DNA of 64,000 bases, taken from the NCBI GenBank assembly GCA_947469285.1, contig CANIOW010000012.1, forward strand, positions 1 to 64,000, given 5' to 3'. Of this stretch, positions 5,907 to 21,617 are shown one piece after another (the first letter of the stretch is position 1; every line of letters begins with the position of its first letter). A model generated the notes under the pieces. The model had not been told where the DNA came from. It was given only the letters and a program-made list of their open reading frames with translations, and did not search any database. A program made the position numbers and the translations under genes. Source of the DNA: Gammaproteobacteria bacterium (lineage in GTDB: Bacteria > Pseudomonadota > Gammaproteobacteria > Steroidobacterales > Steroidobacteraceae).

Positions 5907-6608
5907 TCAGTCAACGGAGGCCGCGGCACGAAAATCCGCGGTAATTTCCCCAGCCGCTGCGATCCACTGTTCATGCTGTGGCTCACGCCACGGCTCGGCG
6001 AGCGCCGCCGCTTCCCACTCCAGCAACACTGGATGCGCCAACAAGCGCCCAGCGTAGGCCGCAGCCGGAACGTTCAACACCAGCCCATAGCTGCGCACGC
6101 GGAACGCCACCGGCGCATAAAAGGCGTCCACGGCAGTGAACACCGGCCCCGCCAGATAAGGGCCACCAAAGCGCCGCAAGCCTTCGGCCCACAGGGACTG
6201 CAAGCGATCGAGATCGGCCTGCAGCGCTGGCGACACCTGCCGCAGACGCACCCGCTGCCCGACGGTCATGGAGCAGTCATGGCGCAAGACACCAAAACCA
6301 GCGTGCATCTCCGCGGCGGCACAGCGCGCCCAGGCGCGCGCCAGCGGATCCGTCGGCCAGACACCGGGGTAGCGCTCCGCCAGAAACTCCACAATCGCCA
6401 GGGAGTCCCAAATGACCGCACCTTCCGCGTGGAGACAGGGCACCTTGGCGGTGGGTGAAAACGCGCTGAACACCGCGGCATTCGAGCCATCGGCAAACCG
6501 CATGAGCCGTTCCTCAAACGGGATCTCCAGCGCACGCAATAAGGCCCACGGTCGCAGCGACCACGACGAATAGTTCTTGTTGGCGATGTATAGGACTGGC
6601 TTGGTCAT
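5907..6608 (-). CDS. Glutathione S-transferase family protein
   Basis: 233 residues with an N-terminal thioredoxin-like fold (LYIANKNYSSWSLRPW, with Ser residues near position 14 available for glutathione activation, then AKVPCL with the conserved cis-Pro) and an all-helical C-terminal domain. It is a cytosolic enzyme expected to conjugate or reduce with glutathione. Its ATG overlaps the stop of the TonB-like gene (6605-6608), so it is translationally coupled to the end of the ExbB/ExbD operon, an unexpected partner. Substrate unknown. Confidence 0.85.
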   Translation of the reverse strand: MTKPVLYIANKNYSSWSLRPWALLRALEIPFEERLMRFADGSNAAVFSAFSPTAKVPCLHAEGAVIWDSLAIVEFLAERYPGVWPTDPLARAWARCAAAEMHAGFGVLRHDCSMTVGQRVRLRQVSPALQADLDRLQSLWAEGLRRFGGPYLAGPVFTAVDAFYAPVAFRVRSYGLVLNVPAAAYAGRLLAHPVLLEWEAAALAEPWREPQHEQWIAAAGEITADFRAAASVD

Positions 6609-7543
6609 CCGGGGAAAAACTCAATTGTTTTACGTGCCACCAGCGGCTCCACGTCCTTGGCCGAAAACTGGAACCCTTTGATACGCGACAACAGCTTGCG
6701 TTCCAGCTCGCTGTCGCCCAGTTCACTGGAGAGCAACTTCACCGCCGTCACCGCCCCTGAGGGCGCGATTTCCAATTGCACCACCAACTTGCCTTGTAAA
6801 GCTGGGTTGTCACGCAGCGCGCGATTGTAAAGCGCATACAGCGCACTCTTGTTACGGTCGAACATCAGTTCAACCTCCTCACGGCTGCGTGCGGCCTTGC
6901 CGCTCTGGCCGTCACGTTTGACGGACGTCTGCCGCGCAAAACTATCACCAAACGACGCCACCGCCTGCGTTGCACCCGCCCCCTTCAAGGAGCCCGCGCC
7001 ACCGCCAAAGCCGCGGCTGGAAGGTGCATTGGACACACCGCCACTGGCTGCGCCAGCGTTGGAGGTAATGATCGAACGTTCCGCGCGCGACGGGCCGTCC
7101 ACCTTGGCAGACAGATTCCGGGTGTTGGTCGGCGAGGGTTCAAAAGCCTCACGCAAGTCTTTTAGTTCATCCTGCAGGGCGATCAAGCCTGCCGATTTCG
7201 CCTGCCGTCGTGCCTGCTGCACGCGGTCCACGGGCAGTGACACTGGCCGCTGCACTGGCTGCGCCTTGACCACCGGCGTTTTCTTTTCAGGTGGTGGCTG
7301 CTTGGGTGGTGGCGGCGGCGGCTCCAGCACCAATTGCACCACGGCATCGGGCAGTGCCGGTGGTTTGGCCGCTTCCTTGACCGTCACCAACGGCAGGACA
7401 ATGGCCAGGCCTGCGAACAGCAGCAAGGCACTGCCGAGCAAGCGGCGGAAGCGGCGTTGCTGCACCGGATCCGGCGTCCAAGGCAACTCGAATTTACGGT
7501 AGGGCGCTTCCAGCGCCAACAGCCCAGCGTCGGAAGGATTCAT
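6605..7543 (-). CDS. TonB-like energy transducer with AgmX/PglI-type C-terminal domain
   Basis: 312 residues. A cytoplasmic N-terminus of about 33 residues is followed by one membrane helix (about 34-56), a proline-rich stretch (PPPPPPKQPPPEKK), a charged, Gly/Ala-rich middle and a C-terminal domain (about 215-312, EEVELMFDRNKSALYALYNRAL through FFPG) of the AgmX/PglI family, named after myxobacterial gliding proteins. The architecture is that of TonB: anchored inside, reaching through the periplasm. It is coupled by ATGA overlaps to the second ExbD gene and to the glutathione transferase. It probably transmits the force of the ExbB/ExbD motor to an outer-membrane partner; no classical TonB box partner is apparent. 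Confidence 0.8.
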   Translation of the reverse strand: MNPSDAGLLALEAPYRKFELPWTPDPVQQRRFRRLLGSALLLFAGLAIVLPLVTVKEAAKPPALPDAVVQLVLEPPPPPPKQPPPEKKTPVVKAQPVQRPVSLPVDRVQQARRQAKSAGLIALQDELKDLREAFEPSPTNTRNLSAKVDGPSRAERSIITSNAGAASGGVSNAPSSRGFGGGAGSLKGAGATQAVASFGDSFARQTSVKRDGQSGKAARSREEVELMFDRNKSALYALYNRALRDNPALQGKLVVQLEIAPSGAVTAVKLLSSELGDSELERKLLSRIKGFQFSAKDVEPLVARKTIEFFPG

Positions 7544-8046
7544 GGTGCCGGACCCCGGGCAGCCGTTTCCTTGGCCACCACTGCCAGCGACAGCTTGGCG
7601 AATTGTGCGGCAGAACAGGTGGTCATGATGCGCTTGAGCACCGTATAGGGGAGCGTTTTGTCCGCCATCACCGTCACTTCGGCTTTGCTCAACCCGCTGT
7701 TGTCGCCGGGCAGCTTGCGCGAAGCTAGCCGCAACGCCGACTGCAACGGCTCGACCGCACCCTCAGGCGCTGCCCGCAAGGCGGCCACCGACATCACTTT
7801 GGCGCCGTTGACGAATAAATCGTCACGCGTCACCAGCACCGTCACCGTTTCGCGGGGTGCTGTTTCCGCGGTCGACATCGGAATGGCAATGTTCTTGGTG
7901 TTCGGCAAGATCTCGTAGTCGGCCGTATGCACCAACAAATACACCACCATGATCATCAGCATGTCGATCATCGGGATCAGCGCGGGCATCCCATGCCCCC
8001 CGCCGCCGCCCTTTTTTGCCAGCCGGCGCAGGCGCAGCTTCATCAT
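7540..8046 (-). CDS. ExbD/TolR biopolymer transport protein, copy 2
   Basis: 168 residues with one N-terminal membrane helix (about 21-41). PALIPMIDMLMIMVVYLLVH carries the single Asp (about residue 28) that conducts protons in ExbD/TolR proteins; the rest is a periplasmic domain. A Gly-rich stretch precedes the helix. Two adjacent ATGs (8046 and 8043) can start it, both overlapping the stop of copy 1. One motor with two different TolR-type subunits is also the arrangement of the myxobacterial AglR-AglQ-AglS motor. Confidence 0.88.
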   Translation of the reverse strand: MMKLRLRRLAKKGGGGGHGMPALIPMIDMLMIMVVYLLVHTADYEILPNTKNIAIPMSTAETAPRETVTVLVTRDDLFVNGAKVMSVAALRAAPEGAVEPLQSALRLASRKLPGDNSGLSKAEVTVMADKTLPYTVLKRIMTTCSAAQFAKLSLAVVAKETAARGPAP

Positions 8047-8552
8047 TTCGGGGCATCTCCCAGGGACACCAGCGGGAACAATTCCCCGCGGGCCGGTTGG
8101 CCGTCCTGCATGCCTTCATAAATCCGCACTGCGTCCATGACCTGGACGATCGTGTCGTAGGGCACGTCGGCTTCGAGCAGCACGGTGGCGTCTTTCTTCT
8201 CCGGAAAACGCGCCTTCACCCGTGCCAGATAGTCTGACAGAGAGTGGTAGTCATAGCCGCCCGCTGTTGCTGGAAACGCCTGCAACAGACCGGAGTTACG
8301 ATCCGCCACCTCAAGGCCCGTTGGGCGCACGATGATCTCCAGCTCTAGCGTCTTGATGGGCAGCAGCTCCTGCGGCACGTTCGCCGGCAGGTTCAGCTCC
8401 AAAATGCGCGTCTTGGAAAAAACCGCCGTAAAGATCAGGAAAAAAATCAGAATGACCATCACGTCCAGCATCGGAACGATGTTCAGGTCATTTCGGCCGC
8501 GTCGGCGCGCATGCGAGCGCGCCTGCCGGCGAGCAATGCGCGATCCACTCAT
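8043..8552 (-). CDS. ExbD/TolR biopolymer transport protein, copy 1
   Basis: 169 residues with an Arg-rich cytoplasmic N-terminus (RRQARSHARRRGR), then a membrane helix starting at NIVPMLDVMVILIFFLIFT with the proton-carrying Asp at about residue 30, then a periplasmic domain. It overlaps the ExbB gene upstream and ExbD copy 2 downstream by ATGA. The two copies differ clearly in sequence, so they are not a recent duplication and probably have separate roles in the stator. Confidence 0.9.
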   Translation of the reverse strand: MSGSRIARRQARSHARRRGRNDLNIVPMLDVMVILIFFLIFTAVFSKTRILELNLPANVPQELLPIKTLELEIIVRPTGLEVADRNSGLLQAFPATAGGYDYHSLSDYLARVKARFPEKKDATVLLEADVPYDTIVQVMDAVRIYEGMQDGQPARGELFPLVSLGDAPK

Positions 8553-9229
8553 GCACGCGTACCGGCAACAGGCGCCGGCGCCGCCGCCTGTTGCGCCAGC
8601 TGCTGTTCATACAAAGCATTCATCACCTTGACAGTCGCCACCTCAAGGCTGTCCGTTAGCTCTGTGGTTTTGGTTTCCAGATACATGTGAGACAGCAGCA
8701 AGGTAATCGCCACAATCAGGCCCAGGGCGGTGTTATTCATCGCCACTGAGATGGATGCCGCCAGCAGGCTGGCCTTCTCTGCCGGATTGGACTGGGCCAC
8801 GGCGGCAAACGCGTGAATCAGCCCGATCACCGTGCCGAGCAAGCCCATCAACATGCCGATATTGGCCATGGTAGCGAGGTAATGCGTCCGCTGCTCAAGC
8901 CGCGGAATGACTTCGATCAAACTTTCTTCCATCGCTTTTTCAACGTCGTCACGGCGACGCGAATGGGGAATGCGACTGAGCCCATAGCGCATCACCTGCG
9001 CCAGTGCGGTTTCAGATTGCGTGGCGATCTGATGCGCCTCGCGGAAGCGGCCACCCTCCAGCAGTGGCTGCAAATCAAACCAAAACGCTTTGTTGCCGCC
9101 ACCTACCTTGTGCAGATAAATGAAACGTTCAATGGCGATGCCAAGGCCGACGACCCACACCAGGGCAATCGGGTAGAGAAAGAGCCCGCCCTGCTTGAAA
9201 AAGTTGGCAATGACGTTAAGGGATTCCAT
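8549..9229 (-). CDS. MotA/TolQ/ExbB proton channel family protein
   Basis: 226 residues with three membrane helices: about 14-36, about 118-145 (including GLLGTVIGLIHAF, the family signature) and about 158-183. It forms the inner-membrane pore that, with ExbD, turns proton flow into motion. The N-terminus is short, as in TolQ rather than the longer ExbB forms. It opens the overlapping stretch ExbB-ExbD-ExbD-TonB-like-GST and is separated from the upstream TPR genes by 97 bases that hold a hairpin. Confidence 0.92.
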   Translation of the reverse strand: MESLNVIANFFKQGGLFLYPIALVWVVGLGIAIERFIYLHKVGGGNKAFWFDLQPLLEGGRFREAHQIATQSETALAQVMRYGLSRIPHSRRRDDVEKAMEESLIEVIPRLEQRTHYLATMANIGMLMGLLGTVIGLIHAFAAVAQSNPAEKASLLAASISVAMNNTALGLIVAITLLLSHMYLETKTTELTDSLEVATVKVMNALYEQQLAQQAAAPAPVAGTRA

Positions 9230-9249
9230 CGCTGATGCTCCAGTAATTG

Positions 9250-9279
9250 GGTGTCGCCGGGCTGCTCGCCCGTGACACC
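9250..9279 (-). promoter_or_regulatory. Intergenic hairpin ahead of the ExbB gene
   Basis: Read on the minus strand, GGTGTC...GACACC arms enclose a second GGGC/GCCC pairing around a short loop. It lies in the 97-base gap between the 165-residue protein gene and ExbB. There is no T run, so it is not a standard terminator; it may moderate read-through or protect mRNA ends, setting motor against TPR gene expression. Confidence 0.4.
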
Positions 9280-9326
9280 AGTTGAATCAATTTTCCAAAT
9301 ACAAACTGTGTCTTAAGTCACGCACT

Positions 9327-9824
9327 CTAAGGACGACCTGGCGCCGTGGTTGCCGCCGGCGCCGGCAGCAGCGCCTCGTGGTAGCGCACCTCACGCCGGA
9401 ACTCCTCACGGTCCAGCGGCGCCAGCGCCTCGTCCACCAAACTGCGCCCGGGACCGCCCAGCAGGTCCCCTGGGTCCGCCGGCTTCCACGGCACAATGAC
9501 CATCACATTGGGCAGCTCGCGGTTACCCGTGATGGTGGTGCGCTCGAGTTCGACGCTATCGACGGATTGACTGCGGCCACGTTTGGTACCGACCGCGGGT
9601 AACGCGGTACGCGGCGGCACCGCCGATGCAGCTGTCGTTGGCGCCGCCGCGAGGCGGGCGGGTGAGCCTGCCGCCGGGGCAATGGGTGGGCCCGCGGGGA
9701 CAGTGGTTGGGCGATTGGCTGAGCCAGTCGCCGCCAGTTCCGGGGGGGCAGCCAAGGCCGTGCCTGCAAGAGCATTCAGCAGCAGGCAAGACAGCGCCCA
9801 GCCAACTCGTTGGAGAGGGGTCAT
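9327..9824 (-). CDS. Exported Pro/Ala-rich protein of the ExbB-TPR operon, function unknown
   Basis: 165 residues. An N-terminal signal peptide (WALSCLLLNALAGTALAAPP) is followed by about 65 residues rich in Pro and Ala, probably unstructured, and a more ordered stretch (VELERTTITGNRELPNVMVI then VPWKPADPGD). I do not recognise a named domain. Its ATG overlaps the stop of the large TPR protein, placing it in the same operon as the motor. A periplasmic linker or assembly factor for the envelope machine is plausible but unproven. Confidence 0.7.
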   Translation of the reverse strand: MTPLQRVGWALSCLLLNALAGTALAAPPELAATGSANRPTTVPAGPPIAPAAGSPARLAAAPTTAASAVPPRTALPAVGTKRGRSQSVDSVELERTTITGNRELPNVMVIVPWKPADPGDLLGGPGRSLVDEALAPLDREEFRREVRYHEALLPAPAATTAPGRP

Positions 9825-12800
9825 GGATGTTTCTCCGTCATCAATGGGCTACCGATGGTGGTCGCCGCTGGCTTGGCTTGCAGGCGGTTGCGCAACTCGG
9901 CGATCCAGCCATTGAGCAGCTTGTCGTCGCCCTCACCAGCCGCACTACGGGCGGCCTGGACACGTTCGAACAAGGCCAGCGCCTCCACCGGACGCTGGCG
10001 ATAGACATCGAGAAACACCGCCACATTGCGCTGCACACGCACATCTTTTGGCCGCAACGCCAGTGCATGACGGTAGGCCGCCTCAGCGTCCACCAGCTGC
10101 CCCTGACGGCGCAGCACCGAGCCATATTCCAGCAAAGCCAGCGCATTGGCCGGGTCGGCGCGCAGCACGCTCTCCAGACGCGTCTGCGCTGCCGCAGGCT
10201 CCACCGCACCCGTAGCCACGCTGAAGAAAGTTGTGTCTTCTACCTTGCCGTAGCGGCCCGCCTTAAGCGTTGCCAATACCTCTAGGGTGCGCTGTACCGC
10301 GCGGTCGTAAAAACCGTCAGCGAGGCGGGCGATATTCAATTCGAACACGCTAATGGCCTTCTCCTCAAAGGGATAGGCCTGCTCCTCCAGCAACAGATCG
10401 TATTGCTCACGCGCTTCACGATCGAGTCCCCTCGGGCGCTCGGACTTCAGCAGCTCCTGGCCTAACTGACGGTACAGTTCGCCGATCTCAAAGGTAGCGG
10501 CGGTAGTCACTTCCGCCACTGCATAGTCGGCAGCGGCAGTATAGGCTTTCAATGCCCGCTCTAGCGCCACTCGCTTGCTGGCTAACGACTTCTTCAGTGG
10601 CACAACCAGATGCACAGCGTTATAGGCATCACGCAGCGGCACGGCCAGCTCCAAAGCGGCCGCCGCGGCCAGAGAGCGACTGCGCTCCGTACGCGCAGCA
10701 CCCGCGTCTCGATCCGCGCTGATCAGCTCACCCAGCCAGCGCGCCCGCCGCTTATCATCGTGCGCCGCCGATGCACGGTCCGCCAATTGCTGTCGCGCTT
10801 CCATGGCCAGCACTATGTCCGTGGAATAGCGTTTGATGTACAGCTCCAACGCCGCTTCCGCTGCTGCCGATGGGCCAGCCGTTGCCTGCAAGCCGGCCGC
10901 GCGCCACAAGGCCTCGCGCCGCGCATCGGCGGGCTCGGCCGCGTTATCGGCGATCCGCAAAAATTCCCGCGCGGCAGCGCCTGACTGACCACTTTCCAGA
11001 TACGCCGTCGCCAGATTGCGCGTCACTTGCAACTGCAGCCCATCAGTGGGGAATTCACGCCGAAACCGCTCCAGTACCACAATGGCGGGAAGCCACTCTT
11101 GCCTGCGCAACAACAAGGCGCCGGCATCATAATCGGCCGTGAGACGTGCCTTGGCCGAAGGCGCCACGTCACGCACCCGCAACCACTCGGCCGTGGCACC
11201 CGCCAAATCACCGGCAGCTTGCTTCGCTTCACCCTGACGATACACCGCTACCGCCAGCCGTTCGATCACCGTCGCATGGTCGGCATCAGTGGTCGGCACT
11301 AGCGGTAACCACTGGAGCAGCGACCCTTCGGCGTTGACCCAATCGCCCGCATCGAACTGCGCATTGGCGATGACGCCCCAGGCAAGACGCCGCTGGCTGT
11401 CATCCACTGCCGGTTGACGCGCCAGCAACAAACGCGCCACGGCCACTGCCTGCGCAAACTGGTGCCGGTCATACAGATCGCTCGCACTACGCGCCAGCAC
11501 CACCGGCGTTTCGGGATGCGCGGGGAACTGGTTCGCGAAACGTAAGCCCGCTGCCAGCGCCGTGTCGTGCCAGGCCACCTTGGCGTCGCCACTCAGCTGG
11601 GCTTCCTCGCGGTCATAGGCCACCACCGCCGCATAGGCCGCGGCTGCCGCCTGCGGATCATCGAGATACCCATAGGCCACTTGCTCGTATTCACTGGCGG
11701 CCTGTGCAAAGCGACCACTATCGACCAGCGTTTCGGCCAATAGCATGCGGGTTTGCGGCGCGTCCGCGGCAGAGGGAAATTGCTGCAGTGACTCGCGGTA
11801 CCAACGCGCCGCCTCGAGATATTCCTCTGGACGTTTCTCGCGCTGCGCAAGTGCATGGTGATACTGCGCCAGATCGCGCAAGTTGCTGTTCAGCTCGCGC
11901 ACTACCGCCGGTTGACTCTCGAGAGTCCGTCCATTCCAGTAAGGCTTACCAAGACTGTAGCGCTCCACAAATTCGCGCTTGCCTTCCACCACCAACTGCA
12001 GGAACCCGCCCTTGGTATAAGCCGCCAGCGCTTGCTGCTGCAGCAATGGCGCCGGGTCGCTATCGGGCGCACGCTGCACATAGGCACGATAAGTGTCGGC
12101 AGCATCCGTATAACGCTCTTTGAGCATGTACAAGTCGCCCAGCTGTGCGTACAACAAATGCCTATAAACCGGGGGTATGGGCCGGTTTGCCAGCACTGCA
12201 TCAATACTCTTGGCGCCCTCCAGATAGCTGAAATCCAAGCTCAAGGCACGGAAGGTATCTTCCACCAGTTCACGTTCCGCGCGGGGCAGCGTATCCGGCG
12301 GTCGCAGACCCCCCTTCGCATCCACCAATTGACGATCGAGAACCCGCAGGAAACTGGCGGCACTGGCTTCATGTTCGCCTTGTTTGAACAGTGCCCAACC
12401 CTCTTTGTATAAGGATTGCTCGAAAAAGACGCCCGCGGTGCCATGCGCGATGACCGCGCGATAGCCAAGCTCCGCCTCCTGCCAGCGCTGTGCGCTAAAC
12501 AAAGATTCGGCGCGACGGAAGTTTGCTTCGTCTACCCGACGGCTTTGCGGATAGTCCTGCACCAGCCGATCCAGCGTCAGCTGCGCTGCTTCCACCTGGC
12601 CATCGGCGTCGAGTGCACGAGCCAGCTGATACAACACGCCATCATTGTGTTCATAGCCTGGAAATGCCGCCAGCAGTTGTTGATACAGCGCAATAGCATC
12701 CCGCGTCTCCAGCGGCGACCCGCTGGCAAGGTCCTGCTCGATACGGCTAAACTCGCCGTCCTCGAGCTTCAGGTCGCCCAACCGGCGCAACGCTTCAGCA

Positions 12801-13066
12801 CGCAGTGCCGCATCGCCTGGTTCCAGCTGGAGGAATTGCTCATAGTAACGGCGCGTTTGCGCCGGGTCGGCTGGAACCGTCGCATGGCGACGGATCTCCA
12901 CCTGCCGCCCTTTGAGATCGCCAATAGTAGGTGACTGTGGCGTAGCGGCGCCGGCCAGGAGTGCCGTGGAAACGGCGAGCACTGCGCCGACACGCGCGGA
13001 CCAGCGGCGCAAGTACGCCGCACCGAGAACCTGTTTGCTGCCGATGGTGACCAGTGCCACGCTCAT
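9821..13066 (-). CDS. Large periplasmic tetratricopeptide repeat protein (1081 residues)
   Basis: An N-terminal hydrophobic segment (VGAVLAVSTALLAGAA, about residues 27-42) suggests export or anchoring. Nearly all of the rest is made of helical repeats with TPR/Sel1-like patterns such as LYQLARALDADGQVEAAQ and LLEYGSVLRRQGQLVDAEAAY. Such solenoids are protein-binding scaffolds. It overlaps by ATGA with the other TPR gene upstream and the 165-residue protein downstream. In the myxobacterial Agl-Glt machine, large TPR proteins similarly bridge the periplasm; by analogy this one may link the motor to the outer membrane. Confidence 0.85.
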   Translation of the reverse strand: MSVALVTIGSKQVLGAAYLRRWSARVGAVLAVSTALLAGAATPQSPTIGDLKGRQVEIRRHATVPADPAQTRRYYEQFLQLEPGDAALRAEALRRLGDLKLEDGEFSRIEQDLASGSPLETRDAIALYQQLLAAFPGYEHNDGVLYQLARALDADGQVEAAQLTLDRLVQDYPQSRRVDEANFRRAESLFSAQRWQEAELGYRAVIAHGTAGVFFEQSLYKEGWALFKQGEHEASAASFLRVLDRQLVDAKGGLRPPDTLPRAERELVEDTFRALSLDFSYLEGAKSIDAVLANRPIPPVYRHLLYAQLGDLYMLKERYTDAADTYRAYVQRAPDSDPAPLLQQQALAAYTKGGFLQLVVEGKREFVERYSLGKPYWNGRTLESQPAVVRELNSNLRDLAQYHHALAQREKRPEEYLEAARWYRESLQQFPSAADAPQTRMLLAETLVDSGRFAQAASEYEQVAYGYLDDPQAAAAAYAAVVAYDREEAQLSGDAKVAWHDTALAAGLRFANQFPAHPETPVVLARSASDLYDRHQFAQAVAVARLLLARQPAVDDSQRRLAWGVIANAQFDAGDWVNAEGSLLQWLPLVPTTDADHATVIERLAVAVYRQGEAKQAAGDLAGATAEWLRVRDVAPSAKARLTADYDAGALLLRRQEWLPAIVVLERFRREFPTDGLQLQVTRNLATAYLESGQSGAAAREFLRIADNAAEPADARREALWRAAGLQATAGPSAAAEAALELYIKRYSTDIVLAMEARQQLADRASAAHDDKRRARWLGELISADRDAGAARTERSRSLAAAAALELAVPLRDAYNAVHLVVPLKKSLASKRVALERALKAYTAAADYAVAEVTTAATFEIGELYRQLGQELLKSERPRGLDREAREQYDLLLEEQAYPFEEKAISVFELNIARLADGFYDRAVQRTLEVLATLKAGRYGKVEDTTFFSVATGAVEPAAAQTRLESVLRADPANALALLEYGSVLRRQGQLVDAEAAYRHALALRPKDVRVQRNVAVFLDVYRQRPVEALALFERVQAARSAAGEGDDKLLNGWIAELRNRLQAKPAATTIGSPLMTEKHP

Positions 13067-14994
13067 GGCTGCTTTCTCGGCGTTGCGCGATCATAAATGG
13101 CTGCTAACGCGAACCGCGCCTGCACTTCGTAGGTGGCCAGCCGCCCTTGCTCCAGCTGCAGCTCGGCCACGGCGAGCGTGGCCAGAAACTGTTCTTGCTG
13201 CGCCTTCATGGCCAGCAGCTGTTGCCGGGCAGCTGCCACGCGCGGTTGCAGGGCGTCCAGCCGACGGCGATAGTCCACCAAGCGCGCTGGCATTTGCTCG
13301 CGGGCTTCCGCCACATGTGCCCAAGCACTGTTAGTGTCCTCCAAGGCGCCCCGGGTCTTGTTCAAATCGCGGCTGATGCCGGCAGCACGTGCCTTCATCG
13401 TCGAAGACAATCGCCAGGCCATCACGCCCTGGAGCAGCCGATATTTGTCGCGGGCCTCGAGGAGATCGTGGTCATCCGGCCGGGCAGTAAACGTGGCCTC
13501 CATACGCTCGAGTTTTTCCCACACCGCATGTTCGCTGGCGGTCGCCAGTGCCGCACCATCACGTTCTGCTTCAGCACGGGTGAGTGCGGCCCGCATTACG
13601 GTTTGTCGCTGCCGCAAGCCATCGACCTGGATCCCATCAAGCTTGGCCAGCGCCGCTGGCAACCACTCGGCAAAGCGCCGCTGACGCTGCGCCACCAGAT
13701 CGTCAAAAGCACCCAGACTGGTCTGCCACGCGGCCAGATTGCGTTCCATTACCAGCAAGGCACGGTAGTTCTTCAGCGCCTCCTGAAACTCGTGACTGGC
13801 CAGCAAGTGCACCAAATAGCGGCTCTCAGGCACCTCGGGCAGCTTGCGGATTTGCCACAGCCAGCCCTCGAGGTCACGGCCTTCGTGGTCGACAATGGTA
13901 TGCATGAGCTGACCCTTACGCAGGGCCGCGATCGACTCATCGAGCCGCACCCGTTCGGCAGCGAACGCGTGCAAGGCCGCCTCGTACTGTTCCACCGCTT
14001 GCGCATCCGCACCCAGCTTCGCATACGCCATGGGGACGGCCAGGTAGCTCTCCTGAACGGCCGCATCCAGCAGGCTGCGTCCTTGTAGCTCCAGCCATGG
14101 CACTAGCGCCTGCTCATGCTGACCCAGCGCCGCCAGCGCCCAACCCTCACCGAGCAAGGCTTTGGTAGACAATGGCCCTTCGAGCCGAACCCGCTCCAGC
14201 GCCAGCTGCGCCCGTGCCGGTTGGCCTGTCTGCAACAGCGCATAGCCCAAGGCCAGATTGGCTTTGTCCCGCAGGGCCGCGGTTTCTTGACCCGCAGTCG
14301 GCAGCGTGCCCACGGCTTCCAGCTGTGTCACCCCCTCTTCCAAGCGCTGCGCACGCACCAGTGCCACTCCCAGGTTGAACTGCGCATAGCCGCGCCATTG
14401 GGAAGGCGCACTCCAACTCGAGAGCAGGGCAATCGCTGGCTCAAGCTTGCCTTGATGCAGTAAGGCCTGTGCCAGCAGTGCACGACGCTCTGCGTCCATC
14501 TCGGGCGGTAGGCTGCTGCCCATCGCGGCAAAGATACTTTCGGCACGCTCATGGTAGCCACGCTGGTACCAGACTTTGGCCAGATAAAAACGCGCGCGGT
14601 CGCGCACGCTCTGCGGCACTCGCGGTTGATCGAGCACCTGCTGGAAAATCCGTCCCGCCTCTAGGTGCTGACCCAGCGACAGATACAAACCTCCCAGCAA
14701 CAACTCGGCATCCTCGGCATGGGCTGTCAAATGGCCTTGCGCACGATAGGCATTGAGCTTGATCAGCGCGTCAAACGGGTCATCGCGGTAGAACTCAAAC
14801 AGGACGTCACCGTAATGCAGGTCAAGCACCTGCACTGCCGGCAATGCGCTCGGATCGGTGGGCAGCACCAGCGACTGCGCGTCGAAGCCAGCCGCCAACG
14901 CGTCCGGCAGCGCCGTTGACAGCGCCACGACGCCGAGCACCACCGCCGCCCAGCGAACCGGACCACGAGCGCGGGGTAGCGGCAACACCCTCAC
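13063..14994 (-). CDS. Periplasmic tetratricopeptide repeat protein (643 residues)
   Basis: Starts with GTG at 14994, with GGGAG a few bases upstream overlapping the end of the preceding gene. A signal peptide (WAAVVLGVVALSTALPDALA) precedes TPR-like repeats up to about residue 350 (for example LYLSLGQHLEAGRIFQQVL and LALGYALLQTGQPARAQ). The last third is strongly helical and charged, with long heptad-like stretches (WAHVAEAREQMPARLVDYR onward) likely to form coiled coil. It is coupled to the 1081-residue TPR gene by a four-base overlap. It probably pairs with it as a periplasmic scaffold. Confidence 0.82.
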   Translation of the reverse strand: MRVLPLPRARGPVRWAAVVLGVVALSTALPDALAAGFDAQSLVLPTDPSALPAVQVLDLHYGDVLFEFYRDDPFDALIKLNAYRAQGHLTAHAEDAELLLGGLYLSLGQHLEAGRIFQQVLDQPRVPQSVRDRARFYLAKVWYQRGYHERAESIFAAMGSSLPPEMDAERRALLAQALLHQGKLEPAIALLSSWSAPSQWRGYAQFNLGVALVRAQRLEEGVTQLEAVGTLPTAGQETAALRDKANLALGYALLQTGQPARAQLALERVRLEGPLSTKALLGEGWALAALGQHEQALVPWLELQGRSLLDAAVQESYLAVPMAYAKLGADAQAVEQYEAALHAFAAERVRLDESIAALRKGQLMHTIVDHEGRDLEGWLWQIRKLPEVPESRYLVHLLASHEFQEALKNYRALLVMERNLAAWQTSLGAFDDLVAQRQRRFAEWLPAALAKLDGIQVDGLRQRQTVMRAALTRAEAERDGAALATASEHAVWEKLERMEATFTARPDDHDLLEARDKYRLLQGVMAWRLSSTMKARAAGISRDLNKTRGALEDTNSAWAHVAEAREQMPARLVDYRRRLDALQPRVAAARQQLLAMKAQQEQFLATLAVAELQLEQGRLATYEVQARFALAAIYDRATPRKQP

Positions 14995-14998
14995 CCCG

Positions 14999-15598
14999 TT
15001 ACTCCCATTCCCGGATCACGAATTCTGGTTGCAACTGGCGCTGGCGGTCACTAACACGTAACTCGATATATTTGGCGCCCACCCCCTTGGGGAAGGTGAG
15101 CGTGGCACCACGTCGATAGTCACGGTCGTGCGGGCCTTTGCCGGTGAAGAACGCCACGATCTCGTGCTGGCCCACCTTGAGGTTGCCTAGAAACAGACGC
15201 TGCACGCCACCCCGGTTGAGGGCCTCTATTTCACGCTCCGTGTAGAGATAGTTAGCGACCTGCTTGTCATCCACCCGCAGCTGCACACTGTCGAGCGCGA
15301 AATACGCACTGACATCCAGCGACAGAAACACCGCTACCTGGGTGTTCGCCGGGAACAACAGCTCTTCTTCGAGGTTGAACAGATCACGGTTCAGATCGAT
15401 CACTTCCTGCTTCAGGTCCTGCACTTGGGTGTCGAGCGCCTGAAACGCGGGTGGGGCCGGTAAAACCGCCACCGCAGCGGGTGCCGGTGCCGGTGCCTCT
15501 GTCTGTGCCGCAGCAACAGCAGTACCGGCCAGAAAGACAACAGCGCTGACAGCGACCAACAGGGAACGCATGCGGGCAAGGACAGGAATGGGTTTCAT
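14999..15598 (-). CDS. Exported protein of unknown function with a coiled-coil segment
   Basis: 199 residues. The signal peptide (MRSLLVAVSAVVFLAGTAVAA) is followed by a short Ala/Pro-rich linker, a predicted coiled coil (DTQVQDLKQEVIDLNRDLFN) and a beta-rich domain ending in EFVIREWE. The LRVDDKQVANYLYTEREIEAL and VGQHEIVAFFTGKGPHDRDY segments read like a fibronectin/PEGA-like surface domain. I do not recognise a family name. It is 7 bases from the TlpA-like gene and 4 from the TPR gene, so belongs to the envelope-machine operon. Confidence 0.72.
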   Translation of the reverse strand: MKPIPVLARMRSLLVAVSAVVFLAGTAVAAAQTEAPAPAPAAVAVLPAPPAFQALDTQVQDLKQEVIDLNRDLFNLEEELLFPANTQVAVFLSLDVSAYFALDSVQLRVDDKQVANYLYTEREIEALNRGGVQRLFLGNLKVGQHEIVAFFTGKGPHDRDYRRGATLTFPKGVGAKYIELRVSDRQRQLQPEFVIREWE

Positions 15599-15604
15599 GA
15601 TGGG

Positions 15605-16210
15605 CTATTCGTCCAGCAAATGACGGATTTCAGTGACCAATGCCTGCTGCTGCTGCCGCGTGACACGACCGTAGACCCGGCGCACCTCGCCGGCACGATC
15701 AACCAGCACCAGCGTCGGCAAATTAACCAGCGCAAACCGTCGACTAACGCGACGGGTAGTATCGCGCAGCACGGGGAAGGCCACCCCGGCACTGCGCGCG
15801 AAGTCGCGGCCTTCCACCGCCGAGTCATCGAGGCTGATGCCGAGCACAACGAGGCCAGCAGCGGCATAGGTGGTATGTAAGGCCTGCAACTGTTCCAGTT
15901 CTGCCTGACAATCGCTGCACCAGCTGGCCCAGAACCCCAGCAGCATCACTTCGCCGACGAATTCGCTGCTACGCAAATTGGGACCGTCCAGGCCTGGCCC
16001 CTGAAAGACCGGCAGGTGCCGCCCGATCCAGTCCTCGGGTGCTGGCGGCGCAGCCGCAGGACCGGCCAGAGCAGGCGCCGTCCACAGCGCCGCGGCCAAA
16101 GCTGCAGCCAAAGCCCATGCCAAACCGCGGGCCAAACCGCGGGCCAAGCCGCGGGCCCAAGCGCGAGCCAGCAGCGCGGTCAAAGCAGCGGTTCGACGTT
16201 CCGTCAACAT
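15605..16210 (-). CDS. TlpA/ResA-like thioredoxin-fold protein (WCSDC motif)
   Basis: I chose the ATG at 16210 because GGGAGG lies 7 bases upstream; the open frame extends to 16306. The 201-residue product has an extended signal region built of repeated Ala-Arg-Gly-Leu units, then a periplasmic thioredoxin domain with FWASWCSDCQAELEQLQ, conserved cis-Pro (NLPTLVLVD) and the C-x-x-C pair for disulfide exchange. It is the first gene of the TPR/ExbB operon. A second thioredoxin lies on the opposite strand 2 kb away, so both arms of the cluster carry one. The role may be disulfide repair in the machine; this is inference. Confidence 0.83.
   Translation of the reverse strand: MLTERRTAALTALLARAWARGLARGLARGLAWALAAALAAALWTAPALAGPAAAPPAPEDWIGRHLPVFQGPGLDGPNLRSSEFVGEVMLLGFWASWCSDCQAELEQLQALHTTYAAAGLVVLGISLDDSAVEGRDFARSAGVAFPVLRDTTRRVSRRFALVNLPTLVLVDRAGEVRRVYGRVTRQQQQALVTEIRHLLDE
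16095..16178. repeat. Seven imperfect 12-base tandem repeats inside the TlpA-like signal region
   Basis: Units run GCCAAAGCTGCA, GCCAAAGCCCAT, GCCAAACCGCGG (twice), GCCAAGCCGCGG, GCCCAAGCGCGA, GCCAGCAGCGCG. Each codes four residues, giving the repeated A-R-G-L pattern just before the hydrophobic core of the signal peptide. Gain or loss of a unit keeps the frame and would lengthen or shorten the signal region. Confidence 0.8.
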
Positions 16211-16500
16211 ATCGCCGCCTCCCAAGGATGGCGAAAGTGCCCTCCGGGCACCCTGTTCGGTCAACTTGGCACGCAAGGGCATGGGGGTCAAGATAAGCCG
16301 CTGCAATTCATCACCCGATGGTAGGGGGCCGCCCCTCGCTTGTCCCCACCGGTTTCGTCGCCGGATGGCGACATTCCGCTACTGTCGGGCGCAAGGGTAT
16401 GCTGCCTGAACCCACCGGTTGAACTGCTGTTCCCCGACAGGGTCCAAGTGTTTACCATGGTCGACTGACGGTACTTAGGCGCCAAGGAGCGAGGGACTTG

Positions 16501-17376
16501 ATGGCCAGGACAGCATCTGCGGACACTCTGCCCCGCTGCGCCTCCCAGTGGGTGCGCGGGTGGCTCGTGGCCGTATTCGCCGTGACCGGTCTGTGGCCCC
16601 TGGTCAGTAGCGCGCGCGACGCCGCCACACCGGTCACCGTGACCGACCCCTTTCTGGAATTACATACGGGCCCGGGGCGCGGCTACCCTGTGACTCAGGT
16701 GGTTCCTCGCGGCGAAATCGTCGAAATCCACAAACGCCACACCGACTGGTATCTGGTACGCGATGACCATCGCCATGAAGGCTGGGTGCACCACCGGCAG
16801 TTGGTCAACACCCTGCTAGGCACACCCCCGGCGGCGGCTCCGTCCCCGACGGATCGCGCCACCGCCCCGGCGCGTAGCGACTCGCCCACGACCGAACAGC
16901 CCCCCCCTCCGGCACCCACGTTCAGCGACCCAGGCTACCTCGACGACGACAGCGAACATCGGTTAGAAGCGGGCATCACGACGGGCCGGAACGGCGCAGA
17001 GAATGTCATCCGCATCAGCGGCGCCTACCTTCTCAACGACAGTTTGTCTGCCGATCTGGCGTTCTCACACGTCATGGGGCGCAGCGTGAACAAGGCGACT
17101 GCCTTGTTCGGGCTCACGCACCACATTCACCCGGAATGGCGCGTTTCGCCTTACGTTTCGCTCGGCGTTGGCGCCGTTTACCTGCGGCCCAAAACCCGCG
17201 CGCTCGAACCAGGCGAACGCATCAGCCAGACTGGCTATGTGGGCCTTGGCCTGCAAACACTCTTCGCACGCCGTTTCATGCTGCGTGCTGACTACCGCAG
17301 CTTCATGGCCTTTTCAGGCCACAGTGACAATCAGGAAGTGAATGAATGGACCGTTGGCTTCGCGTTCTTCTTCTGA
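16501..17376 (+). CDS. SH3b-domain outer-membrane beta-barrel protein
   Basis: 291 residues (an alternative TTG start is at 16498). A signal peptide (WLVAVFAVTGLWPLVSSARD) leads to a bacterial SH3 domain (about residues 40-100, FLELHTGPGRGYPVTQVVPRG through GWVHHRQL), then a Pro-rich linker and a barrel domain of about 150 residues ending in aromatic VGFAFFF, as outer-membrane proteins do. Similar SH3/barrel proteins accompany AgmX-type systems in other bacteria. It diverges from the TlpA-TPR-ExbB operon over about 290 bases and overlaps the next gene by 31 bases. Probably an outer-membrane anchor that also touches peptidoglycan. Confidence 0.78.
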   Translation: MARTASADTLPRCASQWVRGWLVAVFAVTGLWPLVSSARDAATPVTVTDPFLELHTGPGRGYPVTQVVPRGEIVEIHKRHTDWYLVRDDHRHEGWVHHRQLVNTLLGTPPAAAPSPTDRATAPARSDSPTTEQPPPPAPTFSDPGYLDDDSEHRLEAGITTGRNGAENVIRISGAYLLNDSLSADLAFSHVMGRSVNKATALFGLTHHIHPEWRVSPYVSLGVGAVYLRPKTRALEPGERISQTGYVGLGLQTLFARRFMLRADYRSFMAFSGHSDNQEVNEWTVGFAFFF

Positions 17377-18083
17377 GCGGCCTCTGCGCACTGGCTACCG
17401 GCTGTGCCAGTTTGCATCTGCCGTCTTTCCACCTGCCCTTCATGAAGGATCAGGTCGTCGAAACACCCGAGCCGCTGGATGGCCCGGAAACAGCACTGCC
17501 GACTGAGGCCACCAATGCGGAAGGCGGGACACCCGCCGTCATTCACCCCGTAGTGCAGCGGACCGCCGTGCGTCCCATCCAAATCGACAGCCAGGATTTT
17601 GAGGTCGGCCCTTATGTGGGGGTGATCAGCATTCAGGACTTTGGTGTCACCGCCTTGTACGGCGCACGCGCCGCCTACCATATCTCAGAAGATTTCTTCG
17701 CCGAAGCGAGCATCGGCCACACCACGACCGGCCGCACTAGCTATGAACGCTTGACCGGCGTGGCCCTCTACACGCCGCAGCAGCGCGATTTCACCTATTA
17801 CGATCTCGGGCTGTCGTACAACCTGTTACCGGGTGAAATCTTCCTCGGCCGGCGTCGCGCGCTCAACAGCATGCTCTACCTCAGTGGTGGCGTCGGTGCC
17901 GTGCGTTTCGCCAACGACGACCGTTTCTCAGTGTCAGTGGGTGCCGGCTACCGCGTCATGCTGAACAACTGGTTATCGGTACGCGCCGACCTGCGTGACC
18001 GGGTCATGAAATCCCCCATCGGCGGTCTCGGGCGCCCGGCGCACAATGTGGAAAGCTATGTCGGCTTCACCGTGTTTTTCTAA
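17346..18083 (+). CDS. Outer-membrane beta-barrel lipoprotein
   Basis: 245 residues. The N-terminus MDRWLRVLLLSGLCALATGC has a lipobox (LATGC), so the mature protein is lipidated. A linker of about 50 residues precedes a barrel domain with alternating strands, ending VESYVGFTVFF with the C-terminal Phe expected for outer-membrane insertion. It resembles the barrel of the preceding SH3 protein in length and closing motif. The start lies inside the preceding gene (31-base overlap), so the two are probably made together and may form one outer-membrane complex. Confidence 0.78.
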   Translation: MDRWLRVLLLSGLCALATGCASLHLPSFHLPFMKDQVVETPEPLDGPETALPTEATNAEGGTPAVIHPVVQRTAVRPIQIDSQDFEVGPYVGVISIQDFGVTALYGARAAYHISEDFFAEASIGHTTTGRTSYERLTGVALYTPQQRDFTYYDLGLSYNLLPGEIFLGRRRALNSMLYLSGGVGAVRFANDDRFSVSVGAGYRVMLNNWLSVRADLRDRVMKSPIGGLGRPAHNVESYVGFTVFF

Positions 18084-18628
18084 TGCTGCGACGCAACGCT
18101 AGGCTGGAATCACGCCGCGAAGTCCTGCGCCAACTGTCGGCGGCCACCGCCTTGTTGGCACTCCCAGCACTCGCCGGTGCCGGCCAAAAAATTACACCGC
18201 GGCCCGCCACCGACTTCACCCTCACTGTAGAGGGCAAGCCCGGACAGACACAAAGCCTGTCAGCTTTGCGTGGTCAAGTGGTGATGCTGAACTTCTGGGC
18301 CACCTGGTGTGGGCCCTGCCGTCAGGAAATGCCCCTGCTCGACGCCATGGCCCATGAATTCGCTCCCCGTGGCTTCACGCTGCTCGGTGTAAACGTTGAG
18401 GCGGCAGACGCCAAGCTCAAACCCTTTCTGAAAAAAGTAAAACTTGGCTTCCCGATTCTGCGTGACTTCGACAACAAGGTTGCCCACGCCTACAACGTTC
18501 AGGCCATGCCCACCACCTTGCTCATCGACCGCCGCGGCCAATGGCGCTGGCAGCACCGCGCCTATTTGCCAGGTGATGAAGCACAGTACCTCGAGATGGT
18601 GCGCGCCCTGCTCGCTGAAGCTCCCTGA
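18083..18628 (+). CDS. TlpA/ResA-family thioredoxin with a Tat-type signal
   Basis: 181 residues. Residues 10-33 (SRREVLRQLSAATALLALPA) contain a twin-arginine motif ahead of a hydrophobic core, which suggests export by Tat. The thioredoxin domain has FWATWCGPCRQEMPLL with the redox pair and a cis-Pro at AMPTTLLID. It overlaps the barrel lipoprotein stop by one base and is followed 11 bases later by the DUF3570 gene. Thioredoxins are regular neighbours of DUF4266/DUF3570 genes, so it probably serves that protein. No FAD:protein FMN transferase, another usual partner, is present here. Confidence 0.87.
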   Translation: MLRRNARLESRREVLRQLSAATALLALPALAGAGQKITPRPATDFTLTVEGKPGQTQSLSALRGQVVMLNFWATWCGPCRQEMPLLDAMAHEFAPRGFTLLGVNVEAADAKLKPFLKKVKLGFPILRDFDNKVAHAYNVQAMPTTLLIDRRGQWRWQHRAYLPGDEAQYLEMVRALLAEAP

Positions 18629-18639
18629 GGACTTTCACC

Positions 18640-19941
18640 ATGTCTTTTCTGCCCCTGCTGACACGACGCGCCCTCGTGGTGATGCTGCCGGTGTTGTTGC
18701 TCGAGGGTTGTAGCCATCTGCGTTTACCCACGGTGCGGCCCTATGAGCGCACGTCGTTGGCTGCCTCGCACGCCCGTCTCGCTCCATCGCCACTGGCCCT
18801 CGCCGCGGTCGTCCGCTCTCAGGCATGGAGTGAGGCGGCTCATGGCGCCACCCAGCTGCCCTCCCCTCCGCGGCTGGAGGCACAGGCGGAGCTGGGCTAT
18901 GCCTATGACAACAACGATACCCGCACCGTGCAGGGACCAGCGCTGCTGGTACGGCGGGACTTCGGTCGTCACTATTCGGCCAGCGCTGAGGTGAGCCATG
19001 AGCAAGTGAATGACGACTCAGTGGATCTCCTGACATTGGCGGGCGGGCCTTATCATGAGACCCGCACGCGCTATGCGTTCGATCTGGGATTGCGTGACGG
19101 CAAGAGCCGTTATGGGGTCGGCTACGCGCGCCACAGCGCCGACGACGCCGAGGGCAATACGCTCCGCCTTGTCTTCTCTGAAAGCTTGTTTGGCGATCTA
19201 ACGCGATTCACCCTTGCCCATGAGCGCAGCAAAGAGCGCTACACGCGCCGTGGCGACGCCAGCTTCACCGGCGACGCTACCCGACGCAGCTACCAGTTGG
19301 CGGTCTCCCACCTGCTAACCCCGCACTTGCTGCTGGGGGCTACGTTCGAGGCGGACAGTGCCGCCGGCTATCTGGCCGACCCGTACCGTACCGTGCGCTA
19401 TCGCGATGTAGCCACCGCCGACGGCTATGCACGCCAGCCAGAACAGCTACCTACCCTACGCAGCAGCGACGCACTAGCGCTGCGCGCGCACTACACCCTG
19501 CCATGGCAGGCGATAGCGGGGCTGGACTATCGCTATTTCAAGGACAACTGGGGGATCCACGCGCACACCACCCGCGCCACCTATGTCCATTATTTTGGCG
19601 ACGCGCTGTCGGTCGATGCCAACCTGCGCCACTACCGGCAGGACAGGGCCTACTTCCAGCAAGATCTGTACCGCCAGCGGAACGCACAGGAATTCCTGAG
19701 CCGCGACCCAGCTCTGGCGCAGTTCAGCAGTCTCGGTGGTGGCCTGGGTGTCACCTGGCATTTCCTGCGCTCACGACTCGGCTTCGTGACTGGCAGTACA
19801 CTGCATGCGAGTATCGAACACCACCGTCGTCGCTACGACGACTACCATGACGCCAGCCGCTTGGGCCTAGCCCTCGGCAGCGAACCGCTTTACCAGTCCA
19901 ACACCACCCTGCTACAAGTATCGGTGTCGGCGTCTTTCTGA
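18640..19941 (+). CDS. Lipoprotein with DUF4266-like N-terminus joined to a DUF3570 beta-barrel
   Basis: 433 residues. A lipobox (LLLEGC) lies near residue 27. Directly after it, RPYERTSLAASHARLAPSPL and the following SEAAHGA match the pattern I know from DUF4266, normally a separate lipoprotein of about 70 residues. From about residue 85 to the end lies a barrel-like region with alternating aromatic strands of the DUF3570 type, closing QVSVSASF. The two are usually encoded by adjacent genes, so this looks like a natural fusion. Probably outer-membrane located. The biochemical function of either domain is unknown. Confidence 0.72.
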   Translation: MSFLPLLTRRALVVMLPVLLLEGCSHLRLPTVRPYERTSLAASHARLAPSPLALAAVVRSQAWSEAAHGATQLPSPPRLEAQAELGYAYDNNDTRTVQGPALLVRRDFGRHYSASAEVSHEQVNDDSVDLLTLAGGPYHETRTRYAFDLGLRDGKSRYGVGYARHSADDAEGNTLRLVFSESLFGDLTRFTLAHERSKERYTRRGDASFTGDATRRSYQLAVSHLLTPHLLLGATFEADSAAGYLADPYRTVRYRDVATADGYARQPEQLPTLRSSDALALRAHYTLPWQAIAGLDYRYFKDNWGIHAHTTRATYVHYFGDALSVDANLRHYRQDRAYFQQDLYRQRNAQEFLSRDPALAQFSSLGGGLGVTWHFLRSRLGFVTGSTLHASIEHHRRRYDDYHDASRLGLALGSEPLYQSNTTLLQVSVSASF

Positions 19942-19957
19942 CATGCAAGGAGTCCTC

Positions 19958-20860
19958 ATGTCTCGTTCTACCGTATTTACCCACGCGCATCCTTGGCGCG
20001 CACTCGTTCTGGCAACCGCGGCCACGCTGGCACTGGTCACTGCTATGCCAGCCAGGGCAGAAACGGCAGCTCCACCCGGTGCGCCCGCAGAAGAAGCACG
20101 CGCACTGCTAGCCGTCGACGTGTTAAACGAAATGCAGTCGCTGCCGGAACTGCGTATTCCGGAAGTACTGCTGCGGCGCGCGCAGGGAATCGCCATCATT
20201 CCAGGCATGGCGCGCGGCGCACTGCTGCTCGGCGGGCGTGGCGGCAAGGGCGTGGTGCTGGTCCGCGATGCGCAAGGCCAATGGAGCAACCCGGCGTTCA
20301 TCACGGTGGGCGGCGTGAGTTTTGGCTGGCAATTCGGCGTGCAAACGGTCGATGTGGTGCTGGTATTCACCACGCGTCAAAGCATTGAAGGCGTGACCGG
20401 CGGCAAATTAACACTCGGCGCCGACGCTTCCATCGCCGTCGGCCCACTCGGCCGACAGGCTTCGGGCTCGACGGACAGCACCTTTCAGGCCGAGGTCTAT
20501 GCCTACTCGCGCGCGAAAGGCCTGTTCGCCGGCATAGCGCTGGACGGTGGCATCATCAGCATCGACCGCAAAGCGAACGCTCGCTTCTACCAAAAGCCCG
20601 GCGTGCTCGCCTCCGAGATCTTTGCCGCTGGTGCGCCACTGCCGCCATACAGCGGTCAGCGGGTAACCATCGCTGTCAGTCATCTCACTGAAAACGCTCG
20701 CAACCCCCCGCCGCCGTTGCCGCCACTCGCGCCGCCCATGCCACCCGCAGCAGACACTGCCGCTGCGCCCGCACCGGCGGGTGAAGCCCCGCCCCCAGCG
20801 AACACCGCAGCACTGGAGTCGGCGCCAGCGCAGACCACGCCGTTACCGCCGCAGCGGTAA
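19958..20860 (+). CDS. SYLF-domain lipid-binding protein with Pro/Ala-rich tail
   Basis: 300 residues starting at ATG 19958, which has AAGGAG 5 bases upstream (an ATG at 19943 lies before that site). A signal peptide (ATLALVTAMPARAETA) leads into a SYLF/Ysc84 domain (about residues 45-225: GIAIIPGMARGALLLGGRGG, GVSFGWQFGVQ, YAYSRAKGLFAG). SYLF domains bind phosphoinositides in eukaryotes; in bacteria they are periplasmic proteins of unclear role. The last 70 residues are almost only Pro and Ala. It is 16 bases after the DUF3570 gene and likely co-transcribed. Its stop codon lies within a hairpin. Confidence 0.88.
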   Translation: MSRSTVFTHAHPWRALVLATAATLALVTAMPARAETAAPPGAPAEEARALLAVDVLNEMQSLPELRIPEVLLRRAQGIAIIPGMARGALLLGGRGGKGVVLVRDAQGQWSNPAFITVGGVSFGWQFGVQTVDVVLVFTTRQSIEGVTGGKLTLGADASIAVGPLGRQASGSTDSTFQAEVYAYSRAKGLFAGIALDGGIISIDRKANARFYQKPGVLASEIFAAGAPLPPYSGQRVTIAVSHLTENARNPPPPLPPLAPPMPPAADTAAAPAPAGEAPPPANTAALESAPAQTTPLPPQR

Positions 20861-20899: not shown

Positions 20900-21568
20900 C
20901 TAGCGGTCGGCAGTGAGCACAGCAGGAACGATGGGGCAGGTAATACCCGTGCCCCCCATGCCGCAGTAGCCGTTCGGATTCTTCGCGAGGTACTGCTGGT
21001 GGTAGTCCTCGGCGTAATAGAACACCGGCGCGGGCAGCACTTCGGTGGTGATTTCACCAGCCAATCCAGCCGCCCGGAGCGCCGCTTGATAGGCGGCGCA
21101 CACCGCCGCTGCGACATCGGCTTGCGCGGCGTCAAAGGGGTAAATACCCGAGCGGTACTGTGTGCCTACATCATTACCCTGACGCATCCCTTGCGTTGGG
21201 TGGTGGCTTTCAAAGAACACCCGCAGTAGCTCCGCGTAAGTGACGCGCAACGGGTCAAAGACCACCAGCACCACCTCGTTGTGTCCGGTCAGGCCCGAAC
21301 ACACCTCCTCGTAGCTGGGGTTTGGCGTTAGCCCCGCCGCATAGCCCACGGCCGTGGTGTACACCCCGGGAATCTGCCAGAACTTTCGTTCAGCGCCCCA
21401 AAAGCAGCCCAGACCAAACAGAGCCGTCGCATAGCCTGCTGGGAAAGGCCCAACGAGCGGCCGGCCGTGAACAAAGTGCCCGGCTGGCACCGGCAGTGCC
21501 GTAGCACGACCAGGCAGTGCCACCTCCGCGCTGGGCAAACCCGTTAATTTTTCCCGACGCATGAACAT
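20900..21568 (-). CDS. msrA: Peptide-methionine (S)-S-oxide reductase MsrA
   Basis: 222 residues starting at the ATG at 21568, 8 bases after a GGGAG site. It aligns along its length with the long, E. coli-type MsrA: N-terminal extension, then [14 protein letters not shown] with the catalytic Cys55, [26 protein letters not shown] and the C-terminal resolving-Cys region ([15 protein letters not shown]). It repairs methionine S-sulfoxide in proteins using thioredoxin. It stands alone, facing the SYLF gene and following PLD/MarC after about 50 bases. Confidence 0.95.
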
Positions 21569-21617
21569 ACTTTTTTCTCCCATCATCCACCGCGTATCTT
21601 AAAGCCTAAGACCCACA

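Follow-up and report, generated by a model that had tools for sequence, protein, structure and literature searches.

The window analysed here is a stretch of 64,000 nucleotides at the start of contig 12 (CANIOW010000012.1) of a 3.1-Mb genome in 53 contigs (GenBank assembly GCA_947469285.1), from a gammaproteobacterium of the family Steroidobacteraceae. Positions 6605-20860 carry two divergent operons whose products resemble the Agl-Glt machinery of Myxococcus and which we interpret as a predicted proton-driven machine spanning the cell envelope. An earlier, sequence-only reading of this DNA had singled out the region. All genes of both operons are open, and searches with Pfam and NCBIfam models concur with that reading; export signals were judged by eye from the translations. 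Operon A runs on the minus strand from 16306 to 6605 and operon B on the plus strand from 16498 to 20860, each given below from its first gene to its last.

15605-16306, minus strand: exported TlpA/ResA-like thioredoxin with a CSDC motif (AhpC-TSA, 77 bits); its true start is probably an ATG within this frame
14999-15598, minus strand: s199, exported protein of 199 amino acids, a coiled-coil helix followed by a beta-sandwich (present in 132 of 141 surveyed loci)
13063-14994, minus strand: exported tetratricopeptide-repeat (TPR) protein of 643 amino acids, candidate GltC counterpart (TPR families; proposed from position and size only)
9821-13066, minus strand: exported TPR protein of 1081 amino acids, fusion of a GltD-type and a GltE-type part (two genes in relatives; NF033758, GltE)
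9327-9824, minus strand: s165, small exported protein of 165 amino acids (present in 129 of 141 loci)
8549-9229, minus strand: TolQ-like proton channel, AglR-like (PF01618, 98 bits)
8043-8552, minus strand: TolR-like protein, upstream copy, membrane Asp30 (PF02472, 60.5 bits)
7540-8046, minus strand: TolR-like protein, downstream copy, membrane Asp28 (PF02472, 57.8 bits)
6605-7543, minus strand: TonB-like transducer of GltG/AgmX type (NF033768, 59.6 bits; GltG model, 37.4 bits, C-terminal part)
16498-17376, plus strand: SH3 domain and small predicted outer-membrane barrel (SH3_3, 42 bits)
17346-18083, plus strand: lipobox-bearing predicted outer-membrane barrel, TIGR04565 family (140.3 bits, cut-off 60)
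18083-18628, plus strand: second exported TlpA-like thioredoxin, with a CGPC motif (AhpC-TSA, 97 bits)
18640-19941, plus strand: lipobox-bearing DUF3570 protein, predicted barrel of about 16 strands (PF12094, 102 bits)
19943-20860, plus strand: exported SYLF/Ysc84 protein, probably lipid-binding, last gene of operon B (PF04366, 120 bits)

Overlaps of 4 bp at six junctions (6605/6608, with the glutathione S-transferase-like gene that follows, 7540/7543, 8043/8046, 8549/8552, 9821/9824 and 13063/13066) point to the 6605-16306 genes forming one operon. Most of the inventory drawn up in the sequence-only reading was recovered: one TolQ, two TolR proteins, an AgmX/PglI-type TonB-like protein, two further exported proteins, two thioredoxins and the division into two divergent operons. 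Its two large TPR proteins are both present, but the larger is a fusion of D and E, so that there are three TPR modules; its two outer-membrane barrels also stand, but the DUF3570 protein is a predicted third.

Motor, scaffold and barrels

The TonB-like protein (312 amino acids) has one transmembrane helix, a proline-rich linker and an AgmX/PglI tail, and a domain search returned no FHA match in it. A tail closer to ordinary TonB had been named as an observation that would speak against kinship with Agl-Glt. The tail scores well above the cut-off of 40 bits for AgmX/PglI, as against 27.5 bits with tonB_Cterm (cut-off 27.1) and 16.3 bits with PF03544, under the 24.6-bit cut-off of that model. 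Among 20 sampled orthologues, all match the AgmX/PglI tail model and 19 match the GltG model. The TolQ-like protein falls far under the equivalog cut-offs for TolQ (63.6 of 221 bits) and ExbB (40.5 of 206 bits). Across 142 sequences Thr133 and Thr167 of TolQ are invariant, and the aligned membrane column of the downstream TolR is Asp in 134 of 135 loci; judged by these residues, the proton wire of the TolQ/TolR/TolR unit looks intact and the motor looks functional. The corresponding column of the upstream TolR holds Asp in 56 of the 135 loci, Asn in 78 and Ser in 1, while the window has Asp in both copies. The occurrence of Asn in the upstream TolR against Asp in the downstream one suggests an asymmetric (heterodimeric) axle or a division of labour, and this natural difference bears on whether the axle of the Agl motor is a heterodimer.

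In the 1081-residue TPR protein, the GltD-type part spans residues ~40-940 and the GltE-type part residues ~955-1070; most relatives encode the two separately, D with ~940 and E with 200-320 amino acids. The GltE model NF033758 matches 15 of 15 E orthologues (best E 1e-17), as do other TPR models, and the one E orthologue shown in full scores 49.8 bits against a 225-bit equivalog cut-off. No GltD or GltC model was among the matches of the window proteins in an NCBIfam hmmscan at E<=0.1. Together with the AgmX/PglI and GltG matches, the GltE matches uphold the proposed relatedness to Agl-Glt. An apparent C-D fusion of ~1800 amino acids in three loci was rejected as an artefact of open reading frame read-through. 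The AlphaFold2 model of s199 has a mean predicted local distance difference test score (pLDDT) of 78.6, and its fold search gave no PDB match at E<=1e-3 and weak sandwich-like matches at most. No Pfam or NCBIfam model matches s165, which has a conserved C-terminal GNRELP..VPWK block. The s165 gene occupies the position of GltF in Myxococcus, after D and E and before G; s165 may be a GltF counterpart.

An hhalign comparison finds the SH3-barrel and the TIGR04565 barrel homologous (97.5%, E 8.8e-12), and by this alignment the two small predicted outer-membrane barrels are paralogues. The AlphaFold2 model of the DUF3570 protein (pLDDT 77.8; predicted template-modelling score 0.74) has ~16 long strands and 409 PDB matches at E<=1e-3, with the outer-membrane proteins PelB, PgaA, OmpG, FadL and AlgE at the top of those listed, and on this model it is the third predicted outer-membrane barrel of the locus. 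Thiol chemistry is supported in the window because the locus has two CxxC thioredoxins and the genome encodes one DsbD elsewhere. Flavin chemistry is not, because the window DUF3570 protein contains no [ST]GA[ST] flavinylation motif, both motif positions being lost, and the single ApbE of the genome lies on contig 2, outside the cluster; DUF3570 flavinylation as the redox step of the window was rejected on these grounds. The flavinylation motif is retained in a minority of 34 DUF3570 proteins of Glt loci. We also discarded a DUF4266-like N-terminus of the DUF3570 protein (VRPYERTSL), which has no Pfam match at E<=0.1 and no CxC.

Recurrence of the two operons in relatives

Loci for comparison comprised 60 from relatives, 80 named ones (some contigs being common to both sets) and 17 from distant families; the named relatives of the GltD-type protein of the window are Steroidobacteraceae, Woeseiaceae and unclassified Gammaproteobacteria. 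Gene order was counted in 95 loci with enough flank, taken from the 60-locus and 80-locus sets and the window. All 95 contain TolQ, D and the TonB-like gene; 94 have two TolR genes, 93 have s199, 89 have C, 87 have s165 and 80 have a TlpA gene on the same strand. The strict order tonB-R-R-Q-s165-D-C-s199 is kept in 81 of them, and at least some of the exceptions are artefacts of open reading frame calling. The genes are intact in a sister species, with non-synonymous divergence (dN) well below synonymous divergence (dS); the locus of that species lacks an orthologue of the second TlpA. Because the order recurs and the genes remain intact with dN < dS, the gene set is, by comparative genomics, not a product of chance.

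Operon B goes with the core. In relatives the order HzsA-like, SH3-barrel, TIGR04565 barrel, TlpA, DUF3570 recurs. This barrel module is divergent from the core in L201-L203, as in the window. In distant families (L184, L185, L190, L192, L194, L198, L199 and L200) it makes up the front of one operon that continues in the same direction into the core and is headed by an HzsA-like multihaem gene; the co-directional arrangement is also seen in L070-L072, L074-L076, L086 and L092. The barrel operon lies on another contig in some genomes, and ~108 kb from the core in G303. Among 118 relatives, 67 genomes have the barrel over cut-off, 66 of them with a strong GltD, which occurs in 77 overall (Fisher's exact p=3e-20). 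GltD was found in 15 of 399 sampled Pseudomonadota genomes, all Gammaproteobacteria, and the barrel at >100 bits in 11, all within those 15 (p=1.5e-18); one genome of the sample, G187, has a barrel barely at cut-off (62.6 bits) without GltD. A search of plasmids returned no homologue of GltD. The recurrent co-occurrence anticipated by the sequence-only reading was thus observed, and the contrary pattern it had envisaged, barrels mostly apart from the core, was not: barrel genes occur almost only where core genes occur. Because the two operons co-occur even where they are unlinked and, in distant families, are merged into one operon read in a single direction, we conclude from gene content and order that the second operon belongs with the core machine.

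The partnership extends to haem proteins in relatives. HzsA-like proteins (PF18582) are found in 62 of the 118 relatives, 61 with GltD, typically ~2 kb from the barrels; in the 399-genome sample they are over cut-off in 10 of 15 GltD genomes versus 2 of 384 others (p=8e-15, a value that ignores phylogeny). In many relatives the genes before the core encode conserved CxxCH motifs, one in c3 (DUF1585-like), two in c2 (LamG) and two or three in c1 (HzsA-like), and alongside them stands c0, with a twin-arginine-like N-terminus. In these lineages, HzsA-like multihaem proteins lie almost exclusively beside the barrel module (L072 395-3469, L184, L190 and others).

Other neighbours vary. SYLF is found in 45 and ApbE in 44 of the 141 loci. 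In L123, L130-L134, L136 and other Woeseiaceae-type loci, ApbE is upstream of a core with no DUF3570 in the locus, and divergent LemA-M48-SYLF genes adjoin. A second, paralogous core (type b; L078-L080, L082-L085, L088 and L089) lacks redox genes, is followed by a DUF11 adhesin-like gene and encodes a TonB-like protein whose cytosolic N-terminus is longer. L098 (CALQLF020000008.1), labelled as the actinobacterium 'Candidatus Planktophila lacus', is the same locus as that of a gammaproteobacterial relative (G001:C8), and the label is probably wrong. Two genes flank the operons of the window:

5907-6608, minus strand: glutathione S-transferase-like neighbour (in 5 of 141 loci)
20900-21586, minus strand: MsrA methionine sulfoxide reductase, convergent with the end of operon B (homologue, c13, in 5 of 141 loci)

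The first had been counted into a single system at 5907-20860; since it occurs in so few of the surveyed loci, it is probably a lineage-specific neighbour outside the machine, and 6605-20860 is the part of that span that stands.

Proposed function and its alternatives

On balance, and with modest confidence, we favour a gammaproteobacterial trans-envelope machine of Agl-Glt/Nfs type, a proton-driven transducer that would exert force on an outer-membrane barrel complex handling surface redox proteins. By analogy with Myxococcus, proton flow through TolQ-TolR would drive the TonB-like arm, and the arm would pull or turn the D/E/C scaffold with s199 and s165, acting on the outer-membrane barrel pair; the parallel is AglRQS acting via GltG and the GltA/GltB/GltC subcomplex. 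Neighbouring genes suggest that surface redox proteins would be positioned, moved or delivered by the barrels and DUF3570, and that the TlpA proteins would keep cysteines reduced. In the window genus, the barrels and DUF3570 are probably all that the machine acts on, because HzsA-like and LamG cytochromes are absent from the genus.

Several observations weigh against this proposal. A genome search found no HzsA-like protein in the window genome, and none is listed for genera g5 and g23 either; there was also no window-genome match to c2 (the LamG cytochrome) or c0, in a search that had no positive control. With none of these present, a redox cargo is not demonstrated in the window genome. The type-b core paralogues run without any redox genes. 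The co-occurrence p values ignore phylogeny, any kinship to Myxococcus GltA, GltB, GltC and GltD is putative, and the likeness of the barrel pairs is an analogy. Among open-licence PubMed Central papers, we found no experiment on the gammaproteobacterial system. Genus g23 and the window genus share the divergent barrel operon ending in SYLF. The best explanation of the gene content is that the window represents a cytochrome-poor variant, its genus keeping a reduced form without HzsA-like and LamG cytochromes.

A broader proposal is tentative, and we consider it possible rather than probable: that the ancestral job of Glt machinery was the handling of redox proteins on the outer surface (c-type cytochromes of the HzsA-like, LamG and DUF1585-like kinds) via an outer-membrane barrel complex under proton drive, that gliding and spore-coat building would be later re-uses, and that the window lineage would have dropped the haem proteins and kept the machine.

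Alternatively, the machine might be one of secretion or assembly, by which adhesins and c-type cytochromes of the cell surface are exported across, or inserted into, the outer membrane, its window version being residual or serving another cargo. CxxCH proteins within the operon of relatives would fit such a role, as would the DUF11 adhesin-like genes adjoining type-b copies and a DUF3570 fold near the exopolysaccharide exporters PelB, PgaA and AlgE; TlpA/ResA-like reductases, moreover, are typical partners of haem attachment. We nevertheless think secretion or assembly rather unlikely, as the window genus keeps nearly all parts under purifying selection without HzsA-like protein, LamG cytochrome or c0, and as the Agl-Nfs machine moves its polymer after export and does not export it (PMC3858216).

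TonB-type uptake would assign the motor and arm to opening a barrel (DUF3570 or the pair) for import of a ligand, with the thioredoxins protecting or reducing ligand or barrel. The TonB-like arm, the porin-like fold of DUF3570 and the thiol enzymes accord with this, but the tail is of AgmX/PglI type and not that of ordinary TonB, domain searches found no TonB-dependent receptor plug family in either operon, and the large TPR scaffold would be superfluous, TonB-ExbBD uptake requiring none. We regard uptake as unlikely. Gliding motility or surface adhesion in the manner of Myxococcus seems to us improbable. The core is indeed common to the gliding machine (PMC3169522), but its first describers argued in that paper that the core by itself does not suffice for motility and that most hosts have not been documented to glide; the TonB-like protein of the window has no FHA domain, and neither a giant TPR gene resembling GltI nor a second arm of GltJ type was seen in the locus. 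That a barrel/thioredoxin operon merely sits beside an unrelated motor operon, as the divergence in the window and the separations in other genomes might suggest, is very hard to square with near-perfect co-occurrence even where unlinked and with the single co-directional operon of distant families.

Comparison with known systems

The sequence-only reading had put the locus forward as an undescribed system, and this does not hold for its core. In the text of their paper, Luciano et al. 2011 described a seven-gene core, aglRQS-gltCDEG, in a single locus in Gammaproteobacteria, Geobacter and Fibrobacter, with function unassigned and one additional gene (PMC3169522); Wartel et al. 2013 discussed it as a standalone, perhaps basal transport machinery (PMC3858216). 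Like that core, the window has TolQ, two TolR proteins, a GltG-type arm and C/D/E TPR modules in one locus. Unlike it, the window has D and E as one fused gene, and the locus is tied to the barrel pair, TlpA and DUF3570 and, in relatives, also to HzsA-like and CxxCH proteins, a difference drawn against the text of the 2011 paper.

With the Myxococcus Agl-Glt and Agl-Nfs machines the locus shares motor type, GltG/AgmX tail, TPR scaffold and a paralogous barrel pair (PMC3858216, PMC4488436). AglR is a binding partner of GltG, and surface transport is powered by the Agl motor (PMC3169522, PMC3858216), which moves both Nfs complexes and polymer over the surface of the spore (PMC3858216); GltA and GltB of Myxococcus are paralogous barrels that both bind GltC (PMC4488436). 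The locus departs from these machines in the features set against gliding above and in having thioredoxins, DUF3570 and SYLF. The DUF3570-TlpA-DUF4266-ApbE-DsbD flavin/thiol systems (PMC8238504) likewise place DUF3570 beside a thioredoxin-like protein, and ApbE is adjacent in some relatives; however, the window DUF3570 protein lacks both [ST]GA[ST] motifs, and the locus has no ApbE, DsbD or CxC-bearing DUF4266 gene. Tol-Pal and TonB-ExbBD have homologous motor subunits and a TonB-like arm, whereas the proteins here score far under the TolQ/ExbB equivalog cut-offs, and the locus has two TolR genes and no TolA, TolB or Pal.

On the features compared, the window core is thus, by sequence, a member of the known Glt-core kind. 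What appears new is that it partners almost obligately with the barrel/TlpA/DUF3570 module and, in relatives, with cytochromes; we found no paper on the cytochrome/barrel link among open-licence PubMed Central papers, and the supplementary figures of PMC3169522 and PMC3858216 may draw some of these neighbours. The gammaproteobacterial Glt core has been without an assigned function since 2011, and its barrel, thioredoxin and cytochrome ties are a first testable hint of an ancestral role, pointing to surface redox and barrel localisation as phenotypes worth examining. In the 2011 paper, GltA, GltB, GltF and GltH-K are confined to Myxococcales and Bdellovibrionales (PMC3169522); the linkage described here questions the idea that only those two groups recruited outer-membrane barrels.

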